Assembly: GCF_013415885.1 (NCBI RefSeq)
Contig: NZ_CP058910.1
Location: 744,001-808,000 of the forward strand
Origin: Halosimplex rubrum
GTDB lineage: Archaea > Halobacteriota > Halobacteria > Halobacteriales > Haloarculaceae
Reading direction: 5' to 3'
DNA length: 64,000 nucleotides
Below the pieces are notes generated by a model. That model was not told the origin of the DNA, searched no databases, and saw nothing but the letters and a program-made list of their open reading frames with translations. The translations under genes were made by a program, and so were the position numbers. Each line of letters starts with the position of its first letter. Within the stretch, counting starts at the first letter, position 1. Shown here piece after piece: positions 11,671 to 57,540 of the stretch.

Positions 11671-12015
11671 ATGATCCCGACCACGGAACACGGCGACGAC
11701 GCAGATGTCGGCGAGGCGAGTGGGGAGCGGTCGATTCCCATCGAGATCAGCGTCGCGACCGACGGCGACGAGCGGCCGCCGGTCGACGACGAGACCCGCG
11801 TCGACGTGGAGGTCGACGGGCAGATGTACCCGACGGCGCGGCTGGCCGACGGCCGCTACGTCGCGTGGTGGTTCGAGACCGACGCGCCGGAGCTGTCCGA
11901 CCCCGTGACCACCGAGTGGGTCGCCGCGCCGACCCGATTCCTCGCCGCGGGCACCCTCCACGAGCTGTGGCAGGACCCCGCGGCCTTCGACCAGCTGCCC
12001 GACGACGAGCTGTAG
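11671..12015 (+). CDS. Small acidic hypothetical protein
   Basis: A soluble 114-residue protein with no recognised family. The first 20 residues are acidic and look disordered. Three predicted strands follow (IPIEISVATDG, RVDVEVDGQMY, RYVAWWFETDA), then a helix and a short acidic tail. A GTG ten codons upstream would add a basic leader; the ATG at 11671 gives a more typical haloarchaeal start. It lies between the ferritin-like gene and the GYD-domain gene. Confidence 0.6.
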   Translation: MIPTTEHGDDADVGEASGERSIPIEISVATDGDERPPVDDETRVDVEVDGQMYPTARLADGRYVAWWFETDAPELSDPVTTEWVAAPTRFLAAGTLHELWQDPAAFDQLPDDEL

Positions 12016-12153
12016 CGCGGGTGGCGTCGCGAGCGAACGGACGGCTCGGACGAACACTGACCGCGTCCCGACCCCCACCGCCCCTCCACAGCAGCGGGCT
12101 TTCCGCGGCCGCCACCCTCAATTATCTCCCGTCCGTTGTGCGGGTGGGTAACG

Positions 12154-12441
12154 ATGCCCACGTATCTCACGGAAGTCGACGTACACGAGGCGGAGTACCA
12201 GAACCCGCAGGAACTCGTCTCGGTCTGGGGGGCGATCCGCGAGGACATCCGGGAACTCGGCGGCGAAGTCGTCGACACGCACGCCGTCCTCGGCGACTAC
12301 GACTTCCTCGTCGTCTACGCCGTCGACGACCAGGAGCGGGCGTTCCAGGTGACCCAGGCCATCGAGCGCCACGGACTCGACACGGAGACCATGCAGGGGC
12401 TCCCGATCGACCGGATCGGCGAACTCGTCGAGGACGTGTGA
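12154..12441 (+). CDS. GYD-domain protein
   Basis: A 95-residue protein with a dimeric alpha/beta-barrel-like GYD domain (PF08734). The name-giving motif is seen in AVLGDYDFLVVYAVDD, and helix NPQELVSVWGAIREDIRELG precedes it. GYD proteins are small and uncharacterised, related in fold to stress-response and Lrp/AsnC ligand-binding domains. The ATG at 12154 is preferred to the upstream in-frame codon because the fold begins with MPTYLTEVDV. It is convergent with the CBS metalloprotease gene. Confidence 0.8.
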   Translation: MPTYLTEVDVHEAEYQNPQELVSVWGAIREDIRELGGEVVDTHAVLGDYDFLVVYAVDDQERAFQVTQAIERHGLDTETMQGLPIDRIGELVEDV

Positions 12442-12506
12442 CGGTGCCGGCCGAGCCCGGTCCCGGCGGTTTCGGCGCCGGCCGCCTGGGCGTCTGGTGA
12501 CCGGAC

Positions 12507-13712
12507 TTACCGGGACTCCTCCGCGTTGAACACGTCCGATCCCGCCGGGTCGGCGGGTTCGGACTGGTAGCGACCGCTGGACTTGATGATCGACAGCGCG
12601 CTCATGATGTCCGTCCGGGTGATCAGCCCCGCGAACTCGTCGTCGTCCATGACGAGCAGGCGGCCGACGGCGTGGGAATCCAGCTCCTCCAGCGCGGTCA
12701 TCACGTCGTCGTCGGGCGCGACGGTGTAGATCTCCGTCGACATGACCTCGCTGACGCGGTAGGCGTCGCGCTCGACCTCCCGCACCGCGCGGGCGTCCTC
12801 CAGGGTGACGAGCCCGACGATCTCGCCGTCGCGCTCGACGGGGTAGCCGGTGTGCCGTTCCCGGAACATCGTCTCGATCAGCTCGGCGACCGACCCGTCG
12901 TCGTCGACGGTCGTCACGCGCTCGGCCGGCGTCATCACGTCCTCGACGACGACGCCCTCGAAGGCCGCCCGCATCGTCGTCTGCTGGGCCTCGCTGGCCG
13001 CGCCGATGTAGATGAAGAAGGCGATGGCGACCAGGAACAGGCCGCCGCCGCCGAACAGGCCGAACAGGCCGAGGCCGATGGCGAACAGCTTGCCCACCTC
13101 GGCAGCGATCTCGGTGGCTCGGGCGTACGGGCGAGTGCGGTTGAGCAGCGCCCGGAGGACCCGGCCGCCGTCCATCGGGAAGCCGGGCAGCAGGTTGAAC
13201 GCCGCGAGGACGACGTTCATCAGCGCGAGGTAACCGAAGACGAACCCCGCCGCGGCCAGCGCCAGCGAGTCCCCGGTCGGCACCGCGAGGAACGCGGCGT
13301 AGGAGACGACGCCGAGCGCGATGCTCACGACCGGGCCGGCGATGGCGATGGTGAACTCCTGGCGCCAGTCCTCGGGCATCTCGTCGAGTTGGGCGATGCC
13401 GCCGAAGATCCACAGCGTTATCGAGGAGATGGGGAAGCCGTAGCGCATCGCCACCAGCGAGTGACCCAGTTCGTGGAGGACGACGCCGACGAACAGCCCC
13501 AGCGCCGCGACCAGTCCGAGCCCCAGCGACAGCTCGGTCGAGGTCGTCAGCACCTCGACGGGGATCGCCGACCCGAACAGGTCGTTGACGATCTCGACGT
13601 ACCGCCCGATCTGCGACCCGATCGCCCAGGCGAACAGCGGCAGGACGAGGAGGAAAGTGAGGTCCACGTCGATCGGGATACCGAAGGCGCTCCCGATACG
13701 GAATCGTCGCAT
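12507..13712 (-). CDS. M50 site-2 protease with C-terminal CBS pair
   Basis: A 401-residue intramembrane zinc metalloprotease. The catalytic motif HELGHSLVAM lies in an early membrane helix, and the third zinc ligand is in NLLPGFPMDGGRVL. About six hydrophobic segments fill residues 15-235. Two CBS domains follow (about 245-375: VVVEDVMTPAERVT, VSEVMSTEIYTV), as in SpoIVFB-like S2P group III proteins, where CBS domains sense nucleotides. The start at 13712 (MRRFRIGSAFGIPIDV) matches family members; a longer frame crosses the divergent gene's promoter. Confidence 0.92.
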   Translation of the reverse strand: MRRFRIGSAFGIPIDVDLTFLLVLPLFAWAIGSQIGRYVEIVNDLFGSAIPVEVLTTSTELSLGLGLVAALGLFVGVVLHELGHSLVAMRYGFPISSITLWIFGGIAQLDEMPEDWRQEFTIAIAGPVVSIALGVVSYAAFLAVPTGDSLALAAAGFVFGYLALMNVVLAAFNLLPGFPMDGGRVLRALLNRTRPYARATEIAAEVGKLFAIGLGLFGLFGGGGLFLVAIAFFIYIGAASEAQQTTMRAAFEGVVVEDVMTPAERVTTVDDDGSVAELIETMFRERHTGYPVERDGEIVGLVTLEDARAVREVERDAYRVSEVMSTEIYTVAPDDDVMTALEELDSHAVGRLLVMDDDEFAGLITRTDIMSALSIIKSSGRYQSEPADPAGSDVFNAEESR

Positions 13713-13818
13713 ACCTTCGAGTAGTCCCGGCACGCCCTTAAGCCCGCGTGTGGGTCGAATAGCAGCGAGGACCGCCCCCTGCGAGGGGTATAAGCCCGAA
13801 GCGAGCGACACTCGGATC

Positions 13819-14658
13819 ATGTACACGAGTTTCGGGCCCGACGCCGTCGGCGTCGATTGCCAGTTCCCCGAGGCGGCCGCCCTCGCCGCCGAAACCGGCT
13901 TCGACGCGGTCCAGATCGACCTCGGATACCTCCGCGAGCACGGCCCCGACGACTACCGCGCCGTGCTCGACGACCACGACCTCCGTGCGGGGAGCGCGAC
14001 CCTCCCCGTGGACGTGACCGGCGACGCCGAGACCTACGGGAGCGACCTCGACGCGCTCGACGGGGTAGCCGAGGCCGCAGCTACCGTCGGTTGCACCCGG
14101 ATATCGACGTATCTCATGTCGTTCAGCGACGAGCGACCGTTCGAGGAGAACTTCGCCTTTCACCGCGACCGGCTCGAACCGGTCGCCGAAATCCTGGCCG
14201 ACCACGGCATCGACCTGGGGCTGGAGTTCCTCGGTCCCGAGACGCTGCGCGAGGGTCACGAGCACGAGTTCATCTCGACCGCGGAGGGCATGCTCGATCT
14301 TTGCGACGCGGTCGGCGACAACGCGGGCCTGCTGCTCGACAGCTGGCACTGGCACACCGCCGGCGGTGCCGTCGACGCGCTCGAATCGCTCGACGCCGAC
14401 GACATCGTCGACGTACACGTCAACGACGCGCCGGAGGGACTCGGAGTCGACGAGTACGTCGACACCGAGCGCGCGCTGCCCGGCGCGACGGGCGTGATCG
14501 ATATCGAGCGGTTCCTCTCGCATCTGGACGCCGTCGGCTACGACGGCCCCGTGATCGCCGAACCGTTCTCGGACGAGCTGGAAGCGATGGCCGACGCCGA
14601 TGCCGCCCGCGAGACGGCCGCGTCGCTCGAACTGGTCTTCGACCGGGCCGGCGTCTGA
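13819..14658 (+). CDS. Sugar phosphate isomerase/epimerase (xylose isomerase-like TIM barrel)
   Basis: A 279-residue AP-endonuclease-2-like TIM barrel, the fold of sugar phosphate isomerases and epimerases. The strands carry the usual metal ligands: Glu in LGLEFLGPETL, Asp and His in LLLDSWHWHTAGG, His in DIVDVHVNDAP, and Glu in GPVIAEPFS. Mn or Zn dependence is expected. The substrate is unknown. The gene is divergent from the S2P gene and runs in the same direction as the cupin and GCS2 genes behind it. Confidence 0.85.
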   Translation: MYTSFGPDAVGVDCQFPEAAALAAETGFDAVQIDLGYLREHGPDDYRAVLDDHDLRAGSATLPVDVTGDAETYGSDLDALDGVAEAAATVGCTRISTYLMSFSDERPFEENFAFHRDRLEPVAEILADHGIDLGLEFLGPETLREGHEHEFISTAEGMLDLCDAVGDNAGLLLDSWHWHTAGGAVDALESLDADDIVDVHVNDAPEGLGVDEYVDTERALPGATGVIDIERFLSHLDAVGYDGPVIAEPFSDELEAMADADAARETAASLELVFDRAGV

Positions 14659-40013: not shown

Positions 40014-41657
40014 ATGAAGGACTACGCTGACGAATTCGGCCGCGGGGGACTGAACTCGGAAGTCGATCTCGATTCGCTGCTGGCCGGGATCGGACTCGAC
40101 GGCGAAGAGATCGGCTGGCGCAAGGAGTTCGTCGGCTTCGACGAGGCCGACGCCGAGCGCCTGGCCGCGCTCGAACCGCTGTTCGCGAGCCACGCCGACC
40201 AGATCGCAGAGGACTTCTACGACAACCTCACCGGTCACGAGGAGACCACCGCGGTCATCGACCGGTCGCCGAAGACCGTCGAACAGCTCAAGCGCACCCA
40301 GTCGGCGTACTTCGCGAGCCTGACCGCCGGGGAGTACGGCGAGGCGTACTTCGCCAACCGCGCGCGAATCGGCAAGATCCACGACGTGCTGGAGATGCCG
40401 ATGAAACACTACATCGGCCAGTACGGCGTCTACTACGACCTGATCCTCGACCTGCTCCGCGAGCGACTGCAGGAGAACCTCGTCGAGTCGCTTCGGGCGG
40501 AACTCGTCGACGCCGCGACCGACGGCGGTGGCGCTGTCGCGGACACGGACGGCGACGGGCCGTCCTCCGACGACCGTTCGCCCGCGGGACAGCCGGTCGA
40601 CATGGACGCCGTCGAGCGCGTCGTCGAGTCGGAGGTCGACGCCGGCATGGACGAGGTCCTGTCGGTGTTGCGGGTGATCAACCTCGACATGCAGGTGGTC
40701 GCGGACACCTACATCCACTCGTACAACGAGCGCCTGCAGGACGAGGTCGACCGCCGCGAGCGGGTCGCGGCCGAGCGCGAGCGACTCCGGGAGCAGGTCA
40801 GCGCCGACGTCGAGCGGCCGGTCGACCAGCTGCTCGACGCCTCCGAGGACATCGCCGACAGCGCCCGCGCGATGTCCGAGCTGACCGACGAGCAGGTCGG
40901 ACGGGTCGACGAGATCGCCGGCGAGGTCTCGCGGATGAGCGCGACGGTCGAGGAGGTCGCGGCGACCGCCGACGAGGTCGAGACGACCAGCGAGCGCGCC
41001 CGTTCGCTGGCCGAGGAGGGCCGCGACGAGGCCGACGGCGCGGTCGAGGTGATGGACGAGGTCGGCGAAGCGGTCGACGGCGTGGCCGACGACGTGGACT
41101 CGCTGCAGGCCCGGATCGGCGAGATCGACGAGGTCGTCGAGGTGATCAACGACATCGCGGACCAGACGAACATCCTCGCGCTGAACGCCTCGATCGAGGC
41201 CGCACGCGCGGGCGATGCGGGGTCGGGCTTCGCCGTCGTCGCCGACGAGGTGAAGTCGCTGGCGACGGAGTCCCAAGAGCGCGCCGGGGAGATCGAGCGG
41301 ATGGTCGCGGAGATCCAGGCCGACGCCGACGAGACGGTCGACAACCTCGCGACGACGACCGTGCGGGTCGAGGAGGGGATCGACCGCGTCGAGACGGCGA
41401 TGGCGAACCTCGACGACATCGTCGCGGCCGTCGCCGAGGCCGCCCGGGGGATCGGCGAGGTCGCCGACGCGACCGACGACCAGGCCGCCAGCGCCGAGGA
41501 GGTCGCGAGCATGCTCGACGACCTCGTCGAGCGGACGGAGGAGGTCTCCGACGAGGTCGCCGACGTGGCGGCCGCCAGCGAGCAACAGGTCGAGATGGTC
41601 CGCGAGATCGACCGCACCGTCGACCGCCTCGACGCCGCCGGGACCGACGCCGCGTAG
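40014..41657 (+). CDS. hemAT: HemAT-type globin-coupled aerotaxis transducer
   Basis: A 547-residue soluble chemotaxis transducer with no membrane segment. The N-terminal sensor globin (about 25-155) carries the proximal haem His123 in [21 protein letters not shown]-like sequence ([11 protein letters not shown]). A Gly/Asp-rich linker (about 170-195) and a helical region follow. The MCP signalling domain ends the protein, with its conserved tip around [19 protein letters not shown]. HemAT binds oxygen and controls CheA, steering archaellar motility. CheA/CheW are not in the window. The gene is monocistronic, with the Pit gene 74 bases on. Confidence 0.95.
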
Positions 41658-43455: not shown

Positions 43456-43939
43456 CCAACAGCGTAACACGCTCGTCGAACAAGCGAATCCTGTCCCGGA
43501 AGCGGGCCGACTTCGATTCCGGGACTCTCTCGCGGTCGAGAGTCTCTACTGCCGACGTTATCTTCAGTTAGAGACGGGGTTCAGAACGATTCTGTGACAC
43601 ACGCCAGCGTGCTGTTCTCACCCGTCGCGATGCGGATTCGATACGGACCCGCTGTCGGTTCCGCAGTTTGTGGTAGTGGCGTTAGCGGGCCGGTCGGGTC
43701 GACTGAGCCGTCGAGGCGCGGTCCCGCAGTGGTATCAGCGGCGTGGGCTTCGGGAGCGATATCGGATACCGGGGTGCCGGCCGAGGTGGTGGCGATAGCT
43801 CACGCGCTATCGAACGCTCACCGGGGGTGTTGTACATCGATCCGGCCGGTTCTGACTCCGACCGTAGCGAGTGAAGCAACCGCTCAGTGCGGCCTCGAAC
43901 TGACTGAACTACCGCAGTGGCGCGCACTCGGCAAGGCAG
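43456..43939. other. Gene-free interval between ferredoxin and SBP-MCP genes
   Basis: A stretch of 484 bases with no ORF that I can assign. Two hairpin-like pieces are visible: TCCCGGAA...TTCCGGGA-type pairing around 43495-43527 and CTCTC...GAGAG around 43527-43545. Composition is lower in GC than the genes to the left. A 173-residue plus-strand ORF and an 81-residue minus-strand ORF cross it, but both have unlikely composition and no recognisable motif. Remnant sequence of a decayed gene is possible. Confidence 0.5.
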
Positions 43940-46300
43940 TCACTCTCTGTCCACATCGAACGCGTCGAGTCGCGTCCGGAGTTGTTTCGCCTGGGTGGCG
44001 AGCGACTCGACGTTCGAACTCACTTGACTCATCGAAGCGGCCTGTTCCTCCGCCGCGGCCGACGCGTTCTCCGCGGCATCCGCGGTGTGTTCGCCGAGTT
44101 CGACGACTTCGTTGACCATCGACAGGACCTCCTCGGCGCTGTTGGCCTGGTCGTCGACCGCGCGGGTTATCTCCTGAACGCCCTCGTCGGTCTCCTCGAC
44201 GTTGTCCACCACGTCGACGAACGCATCTGCGGCGTTCTCGACCGACTCGGTCGACCCCTCGATTTCACGTTCGGTGGTCCGGATCCGTTCGACGGTCGTC
44301 GACGTGTGTTCCTGGACGTCTTCGATGAGACCGGAGACCTCGCTGGCCGAATCCCGCGTCTGTTCGGCCAGTTGCTTGACTTCGTCGGCGACGACGGCGA
44401 AGCCGTCGCCGGCGTCTGTGCCGCCGCTTCCCCCGGCTCGGGCCGCTTCGATATTTGCGTTGAGTGCCAGGATGTTCGTCTGTTCGGCGATCTCGGAGAT
44501 CAGGTCCACGATCTCGTCGATCTGGGCAACCTGTTCGTCGAGTCGCTCGACGGACTCGACGACCGCCGACATCTCGGCCTGAATCCGCTCCATCTCCTCT
44601 CTCGCCTGTTCCGCAGTCGATTCACCGTCCTGTCCGACCTCGGCGGTGTCTTCGGAGAGTTGCGCGACGGTTCGCGCCGTCGACGCGACTTCTTCGACCG
44701 TCGCGGAGAGGTCGTTCATCTCGCCGGACACTCGATCGAGTCGCTCACGCTGCTGGTCGGCCCGGCTCGTGACCTCCTCGATCGACTCGCCGACCTCTTC
44801 GCTTGCCCGTTTCACTTCCCGGGCTCCCGAAGTGGCCTGTTGGCTCGCCGTCGCAACGTCGTGTGAGAAGTCCTGGATACGTCGCATCGTCTCTTCGATT
44901 TCGTCGAGCATCGCGTTGAACGCCGTCGCGATTTCGCCCATCGCGTCATTTTCGGCGTCCGTCGGCAACCGGACAGTCAGATCTCCGTCGGCACAGTCGC
45001 TCATTATCTCGCCGTATTCCTCCGCGCGTGCCTCGACCCGTTCGCGCAACTCCTGGGATTCGTGTGCCTCTTGAACCCGGTCTTGCAGCGAGTCGTGCAT
45101 ACTGTCGAACGTTCCCTCCTGGTGGAACAGCGCGGGTCTGTACTGCGTCGTTTCGGCGACCTCTCGGAGGTCACACCCGACCGTCTCGGAGAGGAACGTC
45201 TCCTCGGTTCTCTCCGCCCCGAAGAATTCGATATCGTGGTTCTCGTCGGCTCGTGCGATCCGCATGTTGTGGCTGATGTGATGGGTCGCGCCGTCGAGGG
45301 TCACGGTGCCTTCCGGTGCGTCGAAGGTTAGCCCGCTCCGGAGTTGGTCTATCACCGCAGCTTGATCGGTCGTTCCCGCGGCTTCGACAGCCTTCGCGTA
45401 GAGGTGTATCGAAACGTAGCTGTTCTGTGCCTCCTGATTGATGTACTCCGCGTTCGGGAACTTCTCGTAAAACCGCTCGACGAAGGCCTCGTTTTCCGGC
45501 GTCGAGATCTCCTCCATGTAATTAACTCCGACGTGGACATCCGCGAACGCCGGCGGCTCGTATCGTTCGTGTTCGAACGCCTGCGCCATCGCCGTCGACG
45601 TTCCGACGGGCATCGCGAGTCCGCGGTCGGCTTTCTCCCGGAAGAACTCCGCGTGGTTGTCCCCGACGAGCATCGACATGATCACGTCGGGATCAGCCTT
45701 CTCGATCCGATCTACTATCGGCCCGAACGAGGTCTGGGAGAGCGGGGCGAACGCCTTGCCGATCACCTCGGCACCGTGTTCCGCCGCGAGGATGTCCACC
45801 CAGTCGGAGGAGAGATGCCCGAAGTTGTAGTCCGCCGCCACCGTGAAGATCTCCGGCCCGTATTCCGATACGAGATACGGAAGTACGGTTCCGAGTTGCT
45901 GGTGAGCGGTCGCTCCCATGGGGAAGGTGTATCGGTCACAGACACCCCCCTCGTACTGGGTCGTGTAGAAGTAGAGCTGTCTGTGAGCGTCCATCAACGG
46001 ACGGACGACCTCTCGCTCGGAGGAAGCGTACCCGGCCCAGACCGCGTCGGGGTCCTCCGTGCTCAGAATGTCGGTGACCAGTTGTCGGTATCGGTCTACG
46101 TCCGACGCCGGGTCCGGATCGACCACCTCGATCTCGCGACCGAGAATCCCGCCACTTTCGTTCAGCTCTTCGATCGCGAGAAGACTCGCCTGCCACTTTG
46201 AAGTGCCGAGTTCGGCGAACTTCCCCGACCGATTCTCGAGGATGGCTATCGTAATCGGCTCGTCCGACTCGTCAGCCCTACTAATCATCGTTGATACCAC
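43940..46300 (-). CDS. Soluble chemotaxis transducer with amide/urea-type substrate-binding domain
   Basis: A 786-residue protein joining a type 1 periplasmic-binding fold to a transducer. Residues about 16-390 match urea/short-chain-amide binding proteins of the UrtA/FmdD/AmiC type: ITIAILENRSGKFAELG, GGILGREIEVVD, YFYTTQYEGGVCDR and TVAADYNFGH. A HAMP-like segment (about 430-475) and an MCP signalling domain (about 480-786, tip [17 protein letters not shown]) follow. There is no signal peptide and no membrane helix anywhere, so sensor and output both lie in the cytosol. Start is GTG 46300 or ATG 46288. It would detect a metabolite inside the cell and steer CheA. Confidence 0.92.
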   Translation of the reverse strand: MVSTMISRADESDEPITIAILENRSGKFAELGTSKWQASLLAIEELNESGGILGREIEVVDPDPASDVDRYRQLVTDILSTEDPDAVWAGYASSEREVVRPLMDAHRQLYFYTTQYEGGVCDRYTFPMGATAHQQLGTVLPYLVSEYGPEIFTVAADYNFGHLSSDWVDILAAEHGAEVIGKAFAPLSQTSFGPIVDRIEKADPDVIMSMLVGDNHAEFFREKADRGLAMPVGTSTAMAQAFEHERYEPPAFADVHVGVNYMEEISTPENEAFVERFYEKFPNAEYINQEAQNSYVSIHLYAKAVEAAGTTDQAAVIDQLRSGLTFDAPEGTVTLDGATHHISHNMRIARADENHDIEFFGAERTEETFLSETVGCDLREVAETTQYRPALFHQEGTFDSMHDSLQDRVQEAHESQELRERVEARAEEYGEIMSDCADGDLTVRLPTDAENDAMGEIATAFNAMLDEIEETMRRIQDFSHDVATASQQATSGAREVKRASEEVGESIEEVTSRADQQRERLDRVSGEMNDLSATVEEVASTARTVAQLSEDTAEVGQDGESTAEQAREEMERIQAEMSAVVESVERLDEQVAQIDEIVDLISEIAEQTNILALNANIEAARAGGSGGTDAGDGFAVVADEVKQLAEQTRDSASEVSGLIEDVQEHTSTTVERIRTTEREIEGSTESVENAADAFVDVVDNVEETDEGVQEITRAVDDQANSAEEVLSMVNEVVELGEHTADAAENASAAAEEQAASMSQVSSNVESLATQAKQLRTRLDAFDVDRE

Positions 46301-46320
46301 GACTGGGAATTGGCACCTTA

Positions 46321-46402
46321 CGATATATCGGTTTGGATTGCATCAATATGCTCTACTCAACGATAATAATTGGATCTTTATCCACTAATTAGCCTGATTA
46401 GT
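46321..46402. promoter_or_regulatory. Promoter region of the SBP-MCP gene
   Basis: In the 304-base gap between the divergent transducer and prepilin peptidase genes, the first 100 bases are the most A/T-rich of the window. CGATATATCG (46321-46330, palindromic) is a TATA box about 22-30 bases upstream of the GTG at 46300 on the minus strand. ACTAAT/ATTAGT (46384-46389 and 46397-46402) is an inverted repeat that could bind a regulator. The rest, 46403-46604, is GC-rich and holds the peptidase promoter, with no gene seen. Confidence 0.6.
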
Positions 46403-46604
46403 GTGGAACGCAACTCTGGGCGATGGGCGATGGAGTCGAGGCCGAATACGGCCCAGCACCGCACTTGACGCAGATGCTACGTACAGCGGATCGCGCCGGT
46501 CGTCGTTTCCGGGCGAGATCCCGCTCACACACTCGGACGCCCACGACGGCCGCCCCGCCGCCCGCGCCGAAACCACTAATGTCCGCGGGCGCGCTGGTTC
46601 GGTC

Positions 46605-56278: not shown

Positions 56279-57540
56279 TGACCGAGCTCGACGACGGGCT
56301 CGAGCAGCTCTCGGAGAGTTTCGACCAGCTGGAGGCGGTCAGCGCCGACCTGCGGGACGGCCGGCTCGACCAGGACCTGGACACCGACCTGCCCGGCGAC
56401 TACGGCGCCGTGATGGCCAACATCGACGAGGGGCTCGATGCCGTCGACGAGAGCGTCGCGCGGGTCCAGGCCATCGCCGAGTCGGTCCGGGCCGCCAGCG
56501 AGGACGTGGCCGGGAGCACCGACGAGATCGAGTCCGCCAGCGGGGACGTGGCCGACTCGGTCCAGGAGATATCCAGCGGGGCCGACCGCCAGGCGGAGAA
56601 CTTGGAGGAGGCCGCCGGCGAGATGAACGAGCTGTCGGCGACCGTCGAGGAGATCGCCTCCTCGTCGGCGGACGTGGCCGAGACCGCCCGGCGGGCCGCC
56701 GAGCGGGCCGACGCCGGCCGCGAGCAGGCCGCCGACGCCTCCGCGGAGATCGCAGAGAGCGAGAGCGAGAGCGACCGGGCCGCCGACCAGGTCGCGGCGC
56801 TGGACGAGGAGATGGACGAGATCGGCGAGATCGTCGCCATGATCAACGACATCGCCGAGCAGACGAACATGCTGGCGCTGAACGCGAGCATCGAGGCGGC
56901 CAACGCCGGCGAGGCGGGCGAGGGCTTCGCCGTCGTCGCCGACGAGATCAAGTCCCTGGCCGACGAGGTCGCCACCGCGACCGACCGGGTCGAGGACCGC
57001 ATCTCGGAGGTCCAGGCGACGACCGGCGACACCGTCGACGACATCGAGCGGATGCGCGGGCGCGTCGAGTCCGGCGTCGCGACCATCGAGGACGCGATCG
57101 GCCAGTTCGACGACATCGCCGACGCCGTCGAGGACGCCGAGGCCGGCGTCCGGGAGATCAGCGACGCCACCGACGACCAGGCCGCCTCCACCGAGGAGGT
57201 CGTCGCGATGGTCGACGAGGTCAGCACCGTCAGCGAGGAGACGGCCGCAGAGGCGAGCAACGTCTCCGCCGCGGCCGAGGAACAGGCCGCCTCGGTCAAC
57301 AGCGTCGCGGCCAACGTCGACGAGATGGCCGACCTCGCGGCCGACCTGCAGGCGCTGGTCGACGAGTTCGAAGTGTCCGCCGCGGAGGCGGCCGACGGAG
57401 CGGACGACGGCGACGCCCCGGGCGGCGGCTCGCGCACCCTCGACGACGCGCTCGACACCGGCCCCGCTCCCGGCGCCCCCGACGGTTCCGAATCCGCCGG
57501 CTCGCCCGACGACACGCACGGAACGGCCGACGACGACTGA
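56275..57540 (+). CDS. MCP signalling domain, C-terminal portion of the split chemoreceptor
   Basis: A 421-residue cytosolic part. It begins inside a poly-HAMP linker ([18 protein letters not shown] repeats) and carries the full MCP signalling domain, with tip [20 protein letters not shown] at about 190-210. GTG 56275 and ATG 56278 are both in frame, and ATG overlaps the upstream TGA stop (TGATG), so re-initiation is possible. With one base restored near 56210 the protein would be about 1094 residues in one chain. Without repair this half lacks any sensor. Confidence 0.88.

Follow-up and report, generated by a model that had tools for sequence, protein, structure and literature searches.

The receptor gene and its surroundings

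The window, a stretch of 64,000 nucleotides of Halosimplex rubrum contig NZ_CP058910.1 (positions 744,001 to 808,000), carries on its minus strand a gene for a chemoreceptor in which a transporter-type binding protein is predicted to serve as the sensor. The features of the locus, in window coordinates, are the following.

43940..46300, minus strand: chemoreceptor gene, GTG at 46300 to the stop at 43940, 786 aa; probable start at ATG 46288, 782 aa
45134..46258, minus strand: sensor domain, residues 15-389, type 1 periplasmic-binding fold of the haloarchaeal UrtA (TIGR03669) kind
44891..45133, minus strand: linker and HAMP-like control stretch, residues 390-470, with a helix at 398-437 and the HAMP match at 437-470
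43940..44890, minus strand: MCP signalling domain, residues 471-786, a long helical hairpin with tip and three strict methylation-consensus motifs (483-492, 532-541 and 747-756)
46301..46400, minus strand: A/T-rich upstream region with the TATA-like GATATATCG about 35-40 nt ahead of the ATG, a putative promoter
43456..46486, no strand: segment of about 3.03 kb that holds the receptor gene alone, with a clean empty site in the sister Halosimplex genome G277

The open reading frame is intact over its 786 codons. Comparison with the Halosimplex carlsbadense and Halosimplex pelagicum copies suggests that ATG 46288 (MISRADESDEP), and not GTG 46300, is probably the true start, since H. carlsbadense has a codon other than a start codon in place of the GTG. 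A gene lower in GC than its neighbours, with its own A/T-rich promoter, had been predicted originally. The base composition agrees, as GC is 0.62 vs 0.70-0.77 and GC3 0.78 vs 0.94-0.95 in the neighbouring genes; of the promoter, the A/T-rich 100 bp upstream and the TATA-like GATATATCG, whose core ATATATCG is also kept in H. pelagicum, are present, while its function stays putative. The adjoining genes encode a ferredoxin and a prepilin-type peptidase. Three genes away, a HemAT-like soluble oxygen transducer (Protoglobin plus MCP) is encoded at 40014-41657 on the plus strand; a further MCP homologue follows some 10 kb beyond, at about 56317-57378 (plus strand).

Domain architecture and topology

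The N-terminal half of the receptor is a binding protein of the urea/amide type, as originally proposed for residues 16-390. The archaeal urea transporter model TIGR03669 ('urea_ABC_arch', NCBIfam) spans residues 16-389 with all of its positions (1-375/375) at 602.8 bits, above the curated cutoff of 494.8 bits at which a match is scored as a urea equivalog, which places the sensor in the UrtA family; Peripla_BP_6 (residues 15-354, E 1.3e-82) and Peripla_BP_5 (residues 16-358, E 4e-71) of Pfam match the same region. The MCP domain predicted to follow the sensor is recognized as MCPsignal (PF00015) at residues 562-733 (E 7.8e-44). For the HAMP-like piece between the two, Pfam gives a near-threshold match at residues 437-470, weaker than had been stated, with 23.1 bits against a gathering threshold of 25.

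In an AlphaFold2 model of the receptor, built on a 48-row alignment, the sensor is confidently modelled, mostly at 85-98 pLDDT over residues 12-380 with some lower blocks; the linker at 395-419 is poorly defined and the long MCP helices are lower in confidence. The best matches of the modelled sensor in a Foldseek comparison with the PDB are the urea-binding proteins 8tg1 (Caldicellulosiruptor), 8hic (Prochlorococcus) and 7s6e and 7s6f (Synechococcus), and AmiC of Pseudomonas is also among the top matches, with a TMt of 0.87 for structure 1qnl. The sequence search agrees with this result, and the AmiC entries 1pea, 1qnl and 1qo0 were matched in sequence or structure searches. Structure prediction and HMM search, the checks suggested with the original prediction, thus returned urea-binding proteins and AmiC on the one side and TIGR03669, Peripla_BP_5/6 and MCPsignal on the other.

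Like a soluble transducer, the window protein has neither a transmembrane helix nor a signal peptide, and it lacks the signal peptide or lipobox with which an UrtABCDE subunit is exported. Kyte-Doolittle means over 19 residues peak at 0.87, far under the level of a membrane helix, and this peak ranges from 0.87 to 1.26 across all six fused receptors known from the genome and plasmid searches described below, none of which carries an export signal. A wrong start that hides a signal peptide or a membrane helix was ruled out by hydropathy, by the six homologues and by reading the frame from stop to stop, which adds just 14 residues (CNPNRYIVRCQFPV) and no signal peptide. Both outcomes named beforehand as contradicting the prediction, an export signal or membrane helix and a sensor region without a match to binding-protein families, were looked for and neither was found. 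Without a membrane segment, any MCP protein able to reach CheA must keep its sensor inside the cell, and the HemAT-like location assigned to the whole sensor is supported in the same way. The receptor is thus confirmed, as far as the protein sequence and its predicted fold can tell, to be a soluble chain that lacks membrane and export signals and combines a UrtA-type sensor with an MCP domain.

Signalling domain

The tip of the MCP hairpin is intact, and E536/E537, within the second methylation motif, are invariant in all six fused receptors. CheW-family genes and archaellin genes are present in all six genomes. From the conserved motifs, we infer that the output of the receptor would be CheA-dependent taxis with adaptation by methylation. 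An insertion in the tip, GGSGGTDAGDG, was considered as a special feature and dropped, as glycine-rich insertions occur in two other MCPs of the same genome (L003 and L008), there right after the conserved tip, e.g. AGGDGGGGGAGDG.

Distribution, origin and transfer

By kinship and by the genes around the receptor, the window genome groups with Halosimplex. Five named relatives share the architecture. Four came from scanning 84,980 species genomes with a sequence pattern (H. pelagicum, H. carlsbadense, Haloarcula mannanilytica and Halonotius pteroides), and the fifth from a plasmid search, on plasmid PL131 of Natronomonas pharaonis, the one record of the collection with a place covering at least 80% of the query. 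These five copies are full-length, intact and 62-87% identical to the window protein end to end, and the six fused copies occupy different genomic sites. A query across the junction retrieved the fusion from 5 of the 146 family genomes, of which three are Halosimplex, and from the window genome alone among 295 sampled genomes of the phylum, so that its distribution is rare and patchy; in a survey of the order, it was carried by three of 392 genomes. Long frames of weak similarity in G296, G208 and G175 turned out to be ordinary signal-bearing binding proteins, and the fusion was seen in none of the long frames of G296, G208, G006 and G175.

The fused sensors are monophyletic (100/100) amid haloarchaeal UrtA lineages, with a long stem of 0.58, a topology by which the sensor-MCP fusion arose once. 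The ratio dN/dS is about 0.1 in the sensor, 0.06-0.11 in the linker and 0.15-0.27 in the MCP part, values indicating that purifying selection acts throughout the fused gene.

Between Halosimplex and Halonotius or Natronomonas, the fused sensors are 81-85% identical, and in the same pairs free UrtA is 63-68% and urease alpha 73-76% identical. Four other Halosimplex genomes (G277, G369, G414 and G417) are without the fused gene: in G277, the flanks with ferredoxin and prepilin peptidase join directly and the missing part is precisely positions 43456-46486, and the absence is similar in the other three. A membrane partner transferred along with the receptor was considered and ruled out, since the absent segment holds the fused gene alone. 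The deviating GC3, the incongruent identities and the empty site therefore indicate that the gene travels as a single-gene cassette and moves horizontally between species.

Up to about residue 430, over sensor and early linker, the N. pharaonis copy shares 69-81% identity with the window protein (81% for the sensor), but over the MCP part just 35-53% (L126/PL131 13282-14373 vs window 43940-44998). A conserved sensor next to a divergent MCP part suggests that a module swap may have occurred, by which the sensor-linker unit was joined to a different MCP module at about residue 430. A search for the donor of that module did not find it, the nearest MCP matches being 43-47% identical.

The ligand pocket and the link to urea

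Urea is bound in the UrtA protein of Prochlorococcus by a pocket of W120, S122, Y141, Q144, E146, Y190, F192, N246 and S274, of which W120 and N246, hydrogen-bonded to each other, are needed for binding and are said to be strictly conserved across the UrtA proteins of bacteria and archaea (PMC10392092). Eight aligned positions, without the counterpart of S274, were compared, and in the sensor these are Y91, S93, Y112, Q115, E117, Y158, F160 and V212. Six of the eight (S93, Y112, Q115, E117, Y158 and F160) match the Prochlorococcus protein, and W120 and N246 are replaced by Y91 and V212. All eight are identical in six of six fused sensors and in nearly all free haloarchaeal UrtA proteins. Tyr/Val in place of W120/N246 is thus a feature of nearly all haloarchaeal UrtA examined. 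AmiC carries Tyr and Val where the sensor has Y91 and V212, and Pro where the sensor has Q115 (Q144 of UrtA). Given the hydrogen bond between W120 and N246 in the bacterial protein and Tyr/Val in AmiC, the exchange looks like a coupled, family-wide variant. The residues beside the pocket Ser93 differ between fused and free forms (S92A and A94S).

Haloarchaeal UrtA and the sensor share the same domain over 375/375 model positions, the same eight pocket positions and about 52-61% identity. Unlike the fused receptor, which lacks an export signal, is joined to an MCP domain and lies away from urt and urease genes, free haloarchaeal UrtA stands alone, is exported and is mostly encoded beside urease. 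Nearly all of about 70 such proteins, partial or truncated loci excepted, show a twin-arginine motif and a lipobox-like ..GC as read from their N-termini; at 78 of 91 free loci, urease alpha is encoded no more than 12 kb away. A strong urease alpha match is found in 84 of 87 genomes with a TIGR03669-like UrtA vs 106 of the 392 haloarchaeal genomes overall. The free UrtA of the window's own genome, 55% identical to the sensor, carries a Tat/lipobox signal; its gene, with a permease gene behind it, lies about 4.3 kb away from that of urease alpha. Each of the six genomes with a fused receptor has urease and also a free UrtA that scores over the family cutoff. A urease linkage of the fused gene itself was dismissed: no linkage to urease or urt genes was found, with urease 290.8 kb away in this genome and on other contigs in G327 and G148.

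The ligand of the sensor is most likely whatever the urease-linked haloarchaeal UrtA binds and, with an identical pocket in a urease-linked UrtA family, urea is most likely this compound; given W120Y and N246V, another small amide remains a candidate. In free UrtA, C121 (45938-45940, minus strand, in the window gene) and C376 (45173-45175, minus strand) co-vary, with 28 proteins having both, four neither and one a single cysteine, and probably form a disulfide in the exported protein; both are kept in all six cytosolic fusions.

Relation to known receptors

The sensor of the haloarchaeal transducer Car is not a periplasmic-binding-protein domain of the UrtA kind, and neither is that of HemAT, for whose gene in the window Pfam gives Protoglobin. 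Car (Htr11, arginine) and HemAT (Htr10, oxygen) are cytosolic transducers of Halobacterium and, like the receptor described here, soluble MCP-type proteins with a cytosolic sensor (PMC3579733). With these two, the class exists already, and the UrtA sensor within it is what is new. Halobacterium salinarum also pairs binding proteins with transducers for taxis in BasB/BasT and CosB/CosT (PMC3579733); in those systems the two proteins are separate chains, with two transmembrane helices in the transducer, whereas here a single soluble chain combines both. The same Pfam sensor domain is annotated in a chemoreceptor in a survey of plant-associated bacteria, which lists a Peripla_BP_5 singleton, one bacterial sequence that is given no description (PMC8547431).

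That a type 1 binding-protein fold can act as a cytosolic amide sensor is known from AmiC of Pseudomonas aeruginosa, so that the surprise is smaller than the original prediction implied. AmiC resembles the receptor in having a binding-protein-fold sensor in the cytosol, in line with the structural match to 1qnl and the absence of an export signal; it differs in being a protein of its own, with the antiterminator AmiR as its target, and by Pro at the position of Gln115. TlpB of Helicobacter pylori is a chemoreceptor for urea, as the present receptor probably is, there with a periplasmic PAS-type sensor in a membrane receptor and here with a cytosolic UrtA-type one. To our knowledge, a cytosolic urea receptor for taxis has not been described before, and this receptor would be the first. 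Urea as such is a taxis attractant (PMC5245789). The fused receptor is genuine, rare and mobile, a variation on known parts and not a new class of system.

Proposed function and alternatives

Taken together, we consider it rather probable that the receptor is a soluble methyl-accepting transducer which senses cytosolic urea. Urea would arrive through the UrtABCDE transporter or from metabolism and would close the Venus-flytrap sensor; closure would be transmitted via the helical linker and the HAMP-like stretch to the MCP hairpin and would alter CheA activity. Swimming would then follow net internal urea, that is uptake vs urease activity, with adaptation by methylation. The module would have been built a single time, when a haloarchaeal UrtA shed its Tat/lipobox signal, and would now spread as a single-gene cassette. 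Several observations speak against this proposal: the change of W120/N246 to Y91/V212 as in AmiC, the exchanges S92A and A94S beside Ser93 in fused vs free forms, the location of the fused gene away from urease and urt genes and a cytosolic urease that would keep urea low. The retained pair C121/C376, with its probable disulfide in exported UrtA, is a further point against it.

A receptor that is cytosolic but reads another small amide in an AmiC-like manner, such as formamide, acetamide or a short aliphatic or amino-acid amide, appears unlikely, if worth keeping in mind: Y91 and V212 match AmiC and not bacterial UrtA, and AmiC is itself a cytosolic amide sensor, yet Q115 corresponds to Q144 of UrtA and not to the Pro of AmiC, the same pocket occurs in the free UrtA so frequently found near urease and TIGR03669 is scored as a urea equivalog. 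Less probable still is an MCP-like protein with another output, i.e. a cytosolic signalling or scaffold protein for gene regulation or biofilm, or a decoy that buffers urea. Some cytosolic transducers of Halobacterium did not co-purify with CheA (PMC3579733) and the fused gene is a mobile accessory gene, but neither the MCP tip nor the methylation motifs are degraded, both are subject to purifying selection, and CheW and archaellin accompany the receptor in all six genomes. The low GC and patchy distribution could even suggest a gene-call artefact or a decaying, functionless fusion in which a urtA pseudogene had by chance run into an MCP gene; six intact full-length copies of single origin at different sites, with dN/dS of about 0.1, make this hardly credible.

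Returning to the sensing of cytosolic urea, the locus is a clear example in which a transporter subunit that works outside the cell was taken over in full as the sensor of a cytosolic chemoreceptor, and its exported counterparts, the fused copies and the empty sites can all be compared. If the proposal is true, cells would steer by their internal urea (nitrogen) level. The receptor opens 'metabolite taxis by intracellular pool' to direct tests. It is a more tentative, about evenly balanced suggestion that the gene represents a mobile one-gene 'internal urea taxis' cassette, in which a former transporter subunit without export signal is fused to an MCP, the sensor-linker unit can be joined to different MCP modules and swimming would be governed by the balance of uptake and urease and not by external urea.

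The N. pharaonis copy also presents an annotation trap, as the RefSeq name of NP_RS14050 (PL131, 11986-14376), 'urea ABC transporter substrate-binding protein', denotes the transporter binding protein alone. Here the equivalog match hides the MCP half, and other such fusions may therefore be misnamed in databases.
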